A stretch of DNA of 64,000 bases from assembly GCF_900230285.1 (NCBI RefSeq), contig NZ_OCNK01000006.1, positions 1-64,000 on the forward strand, written 5' to 3'. This document shows, piece by piece, positions 45,422-48,505 of the stretch. The notes under the pieces are model-generated. The model was not told the DNA's origin. It saw only the letters and a list, made by a program, of their open reading frames with translations, and searched no databases. Each line of letters opens with the position of its first letter. Position 1 is the first letter of the stretch. Origin of the DNA: Blastococcus haudaquaticus. GTDB taxonomy: Bacteria; Actinomycetota; Actinomycetes; Mycobacteriales; Geodermatophilaceae. The translations under genes were made by a program, and so were the position numbers.

Positions 45422-46510
45422 ATGCCGTTGCGTGCCCGCACCCTCCTCGGACCCGGACCCTCCAACCCCTACGCGGAGGCGACGGTCGCCCTCGGGCAAC
45501 CGCTGCTCGGGCACCTGGACCCGGTCTTCCTCGGCATCCTGGACGAGACGTCCGACCGGCTGCGGCAGGTCTTCGGGACGGCGAACCGGCGCACGCTGCC
45601 GCTGTCGGCCACCGGATCGGCGGGCATGGAGGCGGCGTTCGTCAACACCGTCGGCCCCGGGGACGTCGTCGTCGTCGCCGTCAACGGGCTCTTCGGGCAG
45701 CGCATGGTCGAGGTGGCCTCGCGATGCGGGGCCGAGGTGATCGCCGTCGAGCACGAGTGGGGGCAACCGGTCGACGCGGAACGCGTGCTCGCCGCGCATC
45801 CGTCGCCGAAGCTCATCGCCGCGGTCCACGCGGAGACCTCGACCGGCGTGCGGTCCGACCTCGAGCCGCTCGCCGCGGGCAAGGGCGACGCCCTGCTGCT
45901 GGCGGACTGCGTGACCTCGCTGGGCGGCATCCCGGTCCGGCTCGACGACTGGGGGGTGGACCTCGCCTACTCCGGATCCCAGAAGTGTCTCGGCGTGGCC
46001 CCTGGCCTGGCGCCGTTCACGATCAGCGACCGGGCGTGGGAACGGCGGATCGAGCGGCCGCAGAGCTGGTACCTCGACCTCGGGCTGCTCGGCGGCTATG
46101 CGGGCGAGGCCGCGGGCTCCGGCCGCACGTACCACCACACGGCGCCGACCGGCATGGTCGTGTCGCTGCACGCCGGGCTCGGCCGGATCCTCGAGGAAGG
46201 GCTCGACGCCGTGCACGCGCGGCACGAGGAGGCCGGGCGGCTGCTCCACGAGGGCCTGTCGGAGCTGGGGCTGGAGCTGTTCGCCGCCGAGGGGCACCGC
46301 CTGCCCGAGCTGACCACGGTGCGGGTGCCGGACGGCGTGGACGCGGCCGCCGTCCGCAAGGAGCTCCTGGAGCGCTTCGACCTCGAGATCGGCGGGGGAG
46401 TGGGCGCCTACGCGGCCACCGTATGGCGCATCGGGCTCATGGGGCCCAACGCGGCACCGGACAAGGTCGCCCTCGTCCTCGCCGCCCTGAAGCAGACCCT
46501 GGCCCGCTGA
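45422..46510 (+). CDS. Class V aminotransferase (alanine-glyoxylate/serine-pyruvate type)
   Basis: A PLP-dependent enzyme of 362 residues. It begins ARTLLGPGPSNPYAEA, the usual start of the alanine-glyoxylate aminotransferase group, and has ATGSAGMEAAFVNTVGPGD. ADCVTSLGGIPV precedes the Schiff-base Lys188 in YSGSQKCLG, and a C-terminal VWRIGLMGPNA follows. The likely reaction is transamination between a small amino acid and glyoxylate or pyruvate; the exact pair is not determined. No RBS lies before the ATG. Confidence 0.88.
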   Translation: MPLRARTLLGPGPSNPYAEATVALGQPLLGHLDPVFLGILDETSDRLRQVFGTANRRTLPLSATGSAGMEAAFVNTVGPGDVVVVAVNGLFGQRMVEVASRCGAEVIAVEHEWGQPVDAERVLAAHPSPKLIAAVHAETSTGVRSDLEPLAAGKGDALLLADCVTSLGGIPVRLDDWGVDLAYSGSQKCLGVAPGLAPFTISDRAWERRIERPQSWYLDLGLLGGYAGEAAGSGRTYHHTAPTGMVVSLHAGLGRILEEGLDAVHARHEEAGRLLHEGLSELGLELFAAEGHRLPELTTVRVPDGVDAAAVRKELLERFDLEIGGGVGAYAATVWRIGLMGPNAAPDKVALVLAALKQTLAR

Positions 46511-46522
46511 CCGCGCTGGGGC

Positions 46523-46594
46523 CGAGTGAGCACTTGTGGTCGCTCGCGCCGGCGCGTCCGCGCGTGTCGGCGGCAACAACTGCACAGTCGGCGG
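46523..46594. repeat. 72-bp inverted-repeat element, copy 1
   Basis: About 85% identical (61 of 72 positions) to copy 2 at 47544-47615, in the same orientation. The arms TGAGCACTTGTGGTCGC (46527-46543) and the sequence at 46570-46586 pair imperfectly. It ends exactly at the stop codon of the DUF559 gene (46595-46597). Confidence 0.75.
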
Positions 46595-47464
46595 TCACCA
46601 GTGCGCGCCGCGGCTCCGGAGGGCGGCTGCTGCCCGGTCCACCACGGTGTCCAGGCGCCCGAGATGGCGTCCGGCGAATCGCAGGACCAGCCAGCCCCCG
46701 GCGCCCATGAGCGAGTAGCGATCGACGTCCCGCCCGAACTGACGGGCTTCGGCGTGCTGTCGCCCCTCGTACTCGAGCGCCACCTTCCACCGTTCCCACC
46801 CGAGGTCGGCGTGCGCCACCTCGTTGCCCCAGCGGTCCTGGATCGGGATCTGCACCTCCGGTTCGGGCAGACCGCCGGCGACCAGGGCGTGGCGCACGAG
46901 GCTCTCCGGCCGGGATGCTGCGAGAGGGCTGAGCAGCGGCGCCAGCTCCCGCGCCACGACGATGCCGCGGACGCCGCCGGCTCGTCGAAGTCGCGCCGAG
47001 AGACCCATCCCGTCGAGGTGCCCCGCGCGGAGCAATGCATCGCCCACAGCCACGAGCTCGCCGGCGGGCAACAGGGCGGCCAGGTCCAGCCACGTCTGGG
47101 CGCCGCTGGTGACCGGAAGGTCGCCGTGCCGGACGACGTCGTCATCGGTGAGCCGCCGGACGTGCGTGCGCAGCCGCACCCGCCGGGGCCGGTAAACGTC
47201 CGGCGGGACGCTCAGGTGCAGCGGCCAGCGGTGCTCGACCGGGGCTCGGAGCAGTGCCGCGGCCGTGAGGTGCGAGAACGCCGATCCAGGTGGCAGCACC
47301 GGCAGGGTGGCGAGGCATGCGGCACGGACGTCCAGTGGCACGGCGCGTGACACGTAGAGCCCCCGGCTGATGCGCCGGCCGTCGTCCCTCAGCTGTGCTC
47401 GGGTGAGCCCGGCAGCCAGTGCCTGGTCGCGGGTGCAGGTCGGTGCGAGCTCGTGGTCGGCCAC
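46595..47464 (-). CDS. DUF559 endonuclease-like protein with an AbiEi-like N-terminus
   Basis: A 289-residue protein. The N-terminal ~75 residues (RDQALAAGLTRAQLRDDG, RISRGLYVSRA, FSHLTAAALLRAP) resemble the winged-helix start of AbiEi-type antitoxin and regulator proteins. The C-terminus has a VSR/PD-(D/E)XK-like nuclease pattern: E187 in SRPESLVRHAL, D220 in VAHADLGWE and E231-Y-E233-G. Such genes are often multi-copy in actinobacteria and their function is unknown. The gene is bracketed by two copies of a hairpin repeat, suggesting a mobile or mobilisable unit. Confidence 0.78.
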   Translation of the reverse strand: MADHELAPTCTRDQALAAGLTRAQLRDDGRRISRGLYVSRAVPLDVRAACLATLPVLPPGSAFSHLTAAALLRAPVEHRWPLHLSVPPDVYRPRRVRLRTHVRRLTDDDVVRHGDLPVTSGAQTWLDLAALLPAGELVAVGDALLRAGHLDGMGLSARLRRAGGVRGIVVARELAPLLSPLAASRPESLVRHALVAGGLPEPEVQIPIQDRWGNEVAHADLGWERWKVALEYEGRQHAEARQFGRDVDRYSLMGAGGWLVLRFAGRHLGRLDTVVDRAAAALRSRGAHW

Positions 47465-47543
47465 GGATCGACGGTGGGGCGCCGCGGACGATGCCAGCCG
47501 GTGAGTCGGCCATCGGTGGAGGGCGCCCCGCCTTGTGGACGGG

Positions 47544-47615
47544 CGAGTGAGCCGTTGCGGTCGCCTGCGGCGGCGTGTCCGCGCGTGTCGGCGACCGCAA
47601 CTGCTCAGTCGGCGG
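47544..47615. repeat. 72-bp inverted-repeat element, copy 2
   Basis: TGAGCCGTTGCGGTCGCC (47548-47565) pairs with 47590-47607 with one mismatch around a 24-nt GC-rich loop, a near-perfect 18-bp hairpin. It lies 79 bp upstream of the DUF559 start and 20 bp downstream of the aldo/keto reductase stop, so it may also end that transcript. Confidence 0.75.
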
Positions 47616-47635: not shown

Positions 47636-48505
47636 TCAGGCGGCGTCCAGGCGGGTGAGCTGGTCGTCGGTCAGCGTCACATGGGTGGCGGCCGCGGAGT
47701 CCTGGATGGACCCCGGCCGGGACGCCCCCGGGATGGCGACGACGACGTCGGACTGCGCCAGGTGCCAGGCCAGCGTGGCCTGATGGACCGACACCCCGAG
47801 CTCGTCGGCCACCTCGGCGAACACCGGCGCCGCGGAGTCCAGCGAACCCGCCGCGGAGACCCCGCCGAACGGGCTCCACGGCAGCCAGGCCAGCCCGTGC
47901 TCGGCGCAGTGCGCCAGTTCGACGGCCGAGGACCGGTAACCGGGCGAGAACTGGTTCTGCACGCTCACCAGCGCCTCGCCCAGGACGGCGCGGGCGGTGT
48001 CGATCTGCGGGATCGAGGCGTTGCTGATCCCGACCATGCGGACCAGCCCGTCGTCGAAGAGCTCGCGCAGCGCACCCATCGACACCTCCCAGGGCGTCGC
48101 GGGGTCGGGCCGGTGGAACTGGTACAGCCCGATGGCCTCCACCCCGAGCCGCTTCAGCGACCCCTCGCACGCCCGGCGGAGGTAGGACGGCGACCCGTCC
48201 AGATCCCAGTCGGTGCCGCGCCGGGTGTGCCCGCCCTTGGTGGCCACGAGGACGTCGGAGGCGGACGCCGACGCCAGCGCCTCGGCCACGAGGACCTCGT
48301 TGTGCCCGAACTCGCTCTCGTCCCTCGAGTAGGCGTCCGCCGTGTCGATCAGGGTCACCCCGGCGTCGAGGGCGGCGTGGACGACGGCGACCGCCTCCTC
48401 CCGCGAGGGGCGGGGGTCCTTGGTGGACAGGGGCATGGCGCCCAGGCCCACCGCCCCCACGCTGACCCGGCCGACGATGTCGTTCCCGATGCTCCGCTGC
48501 TGCAC
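47636..48505 (-). CDS. Aldo/keto reductase
   Basis: A second, unrelated-looking aldo/keto reductase of 289 residues. [20 protein letters not shown] carries the Asp and Tyr, [13 protein letters not shown] the Lys and [11 protein letters not shown] the His; the cofactor-binding end is [20 protein letters not shown]. The sequence is closest to the YccK/Tas-type AKR group by pattern. The gene is divergent from rarA, with 35 bp between the starts. Confidence 0.87.

Follow-up and report, generated by a model that had tools for sequence, protein, structure and literature searches.

Paired palindromes around genes for a predicted AbiEi-like/EDxHD-type nuclease in Blastococcus haudaquaticus and its relatives: a REP/RAYT-like arrangement with a different enzyme

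In a 64,000-nucleotide stretch of the Blastococcus haudaquaticus genome (NZ_OCNK01000006.1, positions 1 to 64,000; hereafter the window), a gene for a predicted nuclease is bracketed by two copies of a palindrome, and such pairing of palindromes around nuclease genes of this family is above chance. Palindromes also occur alone (solos); orthologous sites may or may not carry one, and the type of the solos mostly agrees with the genome's nuclease type, with exceptions. In layout and dynamics the system works like REP/RAYT, and the reading that we favour, as somewhat the more probable one, is that the two-part nuclease recognises its flanking palindrome and drives the spread of that palindrome in a REP/RAYT-like way.

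The nuclease gene of the window (46595..47464, minus strand) encodes 289 amino acids. Palindrome copy 1, the 3' copy (46523..46594, plus strand), abuts its stop codon, and copy 2, the 5' copy (47544..47615, plus strand), lies 79 nt 5' of its start. Both the two 72-bp copies and their distances from the gene had been put forward by a sequence-only reading of the window, and the coordinates agree. The copies are direct, that is, on the same strand, and are 85% identical over 72 nt (84% over 75 nt). Copy 2 had been described as a hairpin, which is borne out by arms of 22 nt with 91% complementarity and a spacing of 24 nt. The loop sequence, and not the arms alone, is common to the palindrome copies of the window family. 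As first read, the unit lies between ordinary genes: a class-V aminotransferase gene (agx, 45422..46510, plus strand), which is the usual neighbour at the window locus across the genus, and an aldo/keto reductase gene (AKR, 47636..48505, minus strand). A TGTGGAC motif (47534..47540, plus strand) adjoins copy 2 and is found upstream of most family members. In the form TGTGGAY/RTCCACA, it occurs within 150 nt 5' of the nuclease start at 67 of 79 related loci, mostly 60-110 nt before the start, versus 7 of 233 control windows, and, in a phylum sample, at 19 of 43 loci versus 7 of 129 controls. We take the motif to resemble a DnaA box. The window palindrome is found at no fewer than 12 distinct places in the 4.5-Mb genome. 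Six further DUF559-like places are listed there, none of them next to a window-type copy. Of the at least 12 copies, two flank the window gene and 10 are solo.

The window protein is predicted to consist of an AbiEi-like part (about residues 1-180) joined to a homing-endonuclease-type domain of the EDxHD/Vsr kind (DUF559, about residues 184-288). Against Pfam DUF559 it scores 20.2 bits, marginally below the cut-off of 20.6. E187, D220, E231, H237 and D246 are conserved in the family (E187 and D220 in 48 of 48 sequences, H237 and D246 in 47 of 48); E187, D220, H237 and D246 are tentatively taken to be the EDxHD-type motif residues. In a fold comparison of the model, for which Foldseek's top 1000 chains were re-aligned and which leaves room for other folds, the predicted catalytic fold agrees with that of I-Bth0305I, and on this comparison the earlier description of a Vsr-like nuclease with an AbiEi-like N-terminus holds. 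No AbiEii nucleotidyltransferase toxin is encoded beside the gene in the window, where the neighbours are PF00266 and PF00248 proteins. The nuclease evolves fast, with a median identity of 55% versus 93% for the neighbour gene in eight genomes.

A covariance model (R1), built from 10 copies of the own genome and searched in 41 genomes, gave matches in 23; the model is not arm-specific, and GATCATC-type elements were matched too. Among the matches listed, seven same-strand pairs in other genomes, chosen by eye, have a spacing of 1,022-1,038 nt. Together with the window pair these make eight pairs about 1.03 kb apart, and every one of them encloses a DUF559 homologue that has the same orientation relative to the pair. 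The seven homologues from other genomes, one of them interrupted, show 56-68% identity to the window protein. Since six of the seven other pairs have a flanking gene in common with the window locus, the eight bracketed pairs are not eight independent insertions. In G009 (L034 / L071) the nuclease gene is interrupted, yet the R1 model gives 18 matches, both strands counted.

Pairing was measured by a flank test, in which the 300 nt preceding each start were aligned, in both orientations, to the 180 nt that follow the stop. The related set of 79 loci comprises part of the homologue matches, five loci from G017, G019 and G021 and one Mycolicibacterium locus; it excludes L083, at a contig edge, and L088, whose gene is interrupted. 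Fifty of the 79 loci score above all 224 displaced controls (control maximum 35), and 44 of the 50 pairs exceed all 99 controls in self-complementarity. In 47 of the 50 passing loci the stop codon and the beginning of the 3' copy are no more than 20 nt apart, and in 48 the end of the 5' copy precedes the start codon by 30-130 nt. Of 183 neighbouring genes at the tested loci, only 3 pass at a score of 35 and 4 at 31; neighbour genes that also pass are located at L093:2392-2908, L206:2416-3271 and L082:2440-3538 (in the script's orientation). A direct-only version of the test was passed by 44 of the 79 related loci and 20 of the 43 phylum-sample loci. The corresponding cross-locus control, one locus's upstream flank against another's downstream flank (direct only), reaches 26 at its 95% level and 50 at its 99% level, since some loci have a palindrome family in common. 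No significant pair was found at 29 of the 79 related loci and 16 of the 43 phylum-sample loci. With 27 direct and 23 inverted pairs among the 50, direct orientation was rejected as a general rule; the direct copies first noted in the window are a property of the window family's palindrome but not of the pairs overall. Four of the seven tested loci of the own genome pass (window, L052, L053 and L054), and L055, L057 and L098 have no passing pair. Paralogues there are bracketed by pairs that differ in sequence from the window palindrome. The same arrangement is seen at two Arthrobacter plasmid genes, whose 3' copy starts right at the stop codon. The DUF559 gene at L058 of Mycolicibacterium sediminis is preceded by two palindrome-like copies in tandem, and a matching 3' copy was not found.

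A phylum-wide search gave a match at E 1e-40 or better in 15 of 119 genomes, own genome included. The phylum sample of 43 loci is part of these matches and includes one more locus of G031 as well as loci of its genus-mates G113 and G135; it excludes L191, where the match lies near the start of the contig, and three loci that the 79-locus set had covered. Twenty-seven of the 43 loci, from eight genomes, score above all 127 controls (control maximum 31). These genomes are of the same order as the own genome (G031, G113 and G135), of the same class (G048, G101 and G124) or of the same phylum only (G076 and G120), while in G050, G057, G065, G079 and G109 every tested locus is without a passing pair. 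The 20-nt limit between stop and 3' copy holds for 20 of the 27 loci, and the spacing of the 5' copy is as in the related set for 21. In self-complementarity, scored on the aligned piece only, 11 of the 27 exceed all 54 controls and 16 exceed the 95% level. Several of these pairs may be other repeats, and the argument is carried by the related set, palindromicity being weaker in the phylum sample.

Solo palindromes were compared between genomes at orthologous sites. At one site, viewed by eye over 200 nt in 15 genomes of the genus, a palindrome is present in seven and absent from eight; it is of R1 type in G000 and G003, has other arms in G013, G012 and G001 and is of GATCATC type in G002 and G008. 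At five of six further sites, at least one compared genome is without a complete palindrome; L006 had one comparison genome, and the single genome compared at L001 is occupied. At L005, only 2 nt are found in G013, G006 and G010 where G000 carries the palindrome, and G015 has another palindrome type. No target-site duplication was evident by eye at the solo sites compared, the flanks being too diverged to fix the junctions. The left-hand gene at L005 (L005:2310-2380) seems, by eye, to take its stop codon from the solo palindrome. In G012 a further palindrome sequence (L175, site of L008) lies at the gene end that bears a window-type copy in G000 and G003.

The GATCATC-type element is counted 4-21 times in the seven genomes with that unit and 0-3 times in the seven with another unit or none found, in a rank test of 14 of the 16 genus genomes in which the counts include the unit's own copies and kinship is ignored; G002, with a mixed pair and a count of 15, and G005, with a count of 20 and a 5' copy of GATCATC type, were left out of it. 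The same pattern read backwards has no match in any of the 41 genomes. A second palindrome type is likewise dispersed. As exceptions, R1-like solos remain in G011 and G014, whose unit is of another type, and 7 of 18 solos in G015 are unlike its own unit, as typed on the solos among the matches listed in five genomes against reference units from four. G002, which is without a reference unit of its own, has at least 14 solos (eight of 57-58 nt, six of 66 nt). The case that the sequence-only reading had named against itself, copies scattered with no link to DUF559 genes, is thus partly encountered: copies are mostly solo, yet they mostly match the nuclease type.

An alternative is that the palindromes are regulatory, the upstream copy acting as an operator for autoregulation via the AbiEi-like part and the other as a terminator, with solos being regulated sites or chance relics. 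The available text of PMC7319586 reports that an AbiEi antitoxin binds inverted repeats and is autoregulatory. The ends of upstream copies 30-130 nt before the start (48 of 50) and the 3' copies starting at most 20 nt from the stop (47 of 50) would suit this explanation, as would the closeness of 27 of 33 solos, at 60 nt or less, to the 3' end of a predicted gene (2 of 33 are inside a predicted gene), a count made with a crude gene caller and no random baseline and in which some sites are orthologous. It does not predict, however, that solos are present or absent and switch type at orthologous sites, nor that a predicted nuclease active site is conserved, and the copies have the loop in common besides the arms. 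Regulation of this kind is considered unlikely to be the explanation.

The nuclease genes are mostly at fixed loci, and movement of whole units looks rare. In a tree of 63 proteins, locus groups 03, 04 and 05 each form a clade, as do the window locus and the purS locus apart from exceptions, in which L033 joins the window-locus clade and L117 and L134 join the purS clade from other sites. L103 and L119, which are put with the window locus by their neighbour gene, are placed elsewhere in the tree, and locus 02 divides into two separate clades. A search for the aminotransferase in 27 genomes gave 16 loci, at 10 of which a DUF559 gene (one truncated by a contig end) lies beside it, with palindromes of GAGTGAGCAGTTG-type, GACTGCTGAG-type or GATCATCG-type. 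In G007 agx and AKR are directly adjacent with no unit between them, an empty site of the sort that had been suggested for relatives; the other five loci have no DUF559 match within the stretch examined. Within the window clade, palindrome type tracks protein subclade, L033 having a third type, and over eight loci nuclease identity and palindrome similarity have a partial rank correlation of 0.46 (p 0.017) when the neighbour is controlled for. Orthologues without repeats, which had been named as evidence against the partnership, are seen to the extent that G003 (L077) has the 5' copy only, the 3' copy missing, and G002 (L078) has a mixed palindrome pair.

Some of these observations would fit an IS-like transposon made up of palindrome, gene and palindrome, with the solos as relics or miniature derivatives: the unit has a single gene with a palindrome at both ends, the agx-AKR site is without it in G007, and a few units elsewhere (L117, L134 and L033) have a protein of another locus's clade. 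L117 of G003 has a protein and palindrome of the purS-locus type and adjoins a gene next to which G000 and G006 have another unit. Its common downstream flank stops at the palindrome, but its upstream flank has no match to the other occupants of the site, so that one flank only is in common. Besides this single common flank at L117, protein clades mostly follow fixed loci, the palindromes at the two ends may differ or be missing, and 10 of the at least 12 copies in the own genome are solo, all of which argue against such a transposon; it is judged slightly less likely again than regulation. Since the majority of protein clades keep to their loci, transposition of whole units was rejected as the principal mode. 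The self-spreading unit first proposed is accordingly kept for the palindrome, which spreads, but not for the nuclease genes, which are mostly fixed with few units at other sites. IS200/IS605 elements are likewise small one-gene units with palindromes at both ends, and the present unit resembles them in this layout; it differs in that the own genome is without a Y1 transposase, the genes are mostly fixed and the end palindromes differ or are lost independently. Least likely of the alternatives, and improbable, is that other machinery spreads dispersed palindromes that merely gather beside nuclease genes, for although solos prefer gene 3' ends (no random baseline) and some are unlike the resident unit, neighbouring genes are bracketed in just 3 of 183 cases, distinct nuclease lineages carry distinct palindromes and the own genome yielded no Y1 transposase gene.

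In the favoured reading of a nuclease that spreads its own palindrome, the palindromes would be the cognate DNA sites of the enzyme. The AbiEi-like part, possibly dimeric, would bind the inverted repeat that the palindrome presents, and nicking or cutting within or next to the palindrome would fall to the EDxHD/Vsr-type domain. Repair of the break, or gene conversion from another copy, could then install, renew and multiply the palindrome. New palindromes would arise mainly between genes, near gene 3' ends, while the nuclease gene would retain a copy at both ends at a mostly fixed locus and would evolve fast along with the arms of its palindrome. Against a cognate nuclease stand the unpaired loci, the mixed or missing copies, the limited palindromicity of some phylum-sample pairs, the R1-like solos in G011 and G014, whose unit is of another type, the G015 solos that are unlike its unit, and the low copy numbers.

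The nearest published parallel is REP/RAYT (PMC2817692, in the text available). According to the available parts of PMC2817692 (Nunvar 2010) and PMC8266576, the RAYT nuclease gene lies between two palindromes, evolves fast and co-evolves with the palindrome, and dispersed cognate copies are tied to the presence of the gene. Cognate palindromes on both sides of a nuclease gene, a fast-evolving gene whose divergence goes along with that of its palindrome, and dispersed copies are found here as well, and the REP/RAYT-comparable partnership suggested from the window holds and is wider than first seen (8 of 8 pairs; 50 of 79 and 27 of 43 loci). RAYTs, in contrast, are Y1 HUH transposases, whereas the enzyme here is predicted to be EDxHD/Vsr-like with an AbiEi-like part. 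No Y1 (PF01797) transposase was found in the own genome by a search that gave matches in 5 of 14 control genomes. Membership of REP/RAYT was rejected on this ground, the transposase being its defining enzyme. Whereas REP/RAYT genes have their flanking palindromes inverted, the copies here may be direct, as in the window family (27 direct and 23 inverted overall). REPs are 20-40 bp long (available text of PMC3733652) and usually exceed 100 copies per genome (available text of PMC2817692), whereas the two best-sampled palindrome families here measure about 57-76 nt and the window family has at least 12 copies in its own genome. Compared with EDxHD homing endonucleases such as I-Bth0305I, as described in the accessible part of PMC3943268, there is no sign of an intron or intein, the presumed target flanks the gene twice between ordinary genes with solos dispersed, and an AbiEi-like part is present at the N-terminus. 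Unlike AbiE type IV toxin-antitoxin systems, the AbiEi-like part is fused to a nuclease domain and has no AbiEii neighbour in the window. The partnership had been put forward as possibly undescribed, and no account of it was found in the open-access literature, as far as its available text goes; by title, none of the DUF559 papers there links the domain to palindromes. The RepRanger survey of REPs includes actinobacterial genomes, and its main text, as available, is without the terms RAYT or endonuclease.

The chances are about even that REP-type systems arose independently, in that an EDxHD/Vsr-like nuclease with an AbiEi-like part spreads, converts and turns over its own palindromic targets across the chromosomes of many lineages of the phylum, enzyme and palindrome co-evolving. 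The findings offer a concrete and testable role for a large family without known function, that of DUF559 domains joined to AbiEi-like parts. They suggest that an enzyme-palindrome partnership of the REP/RAYT kind has arisen a second time, with different chemistry. With a confidently modelled enzyme and candidate targets for many paralogues, the spread of short palindromes in bacterial chromosomes becomes testable.
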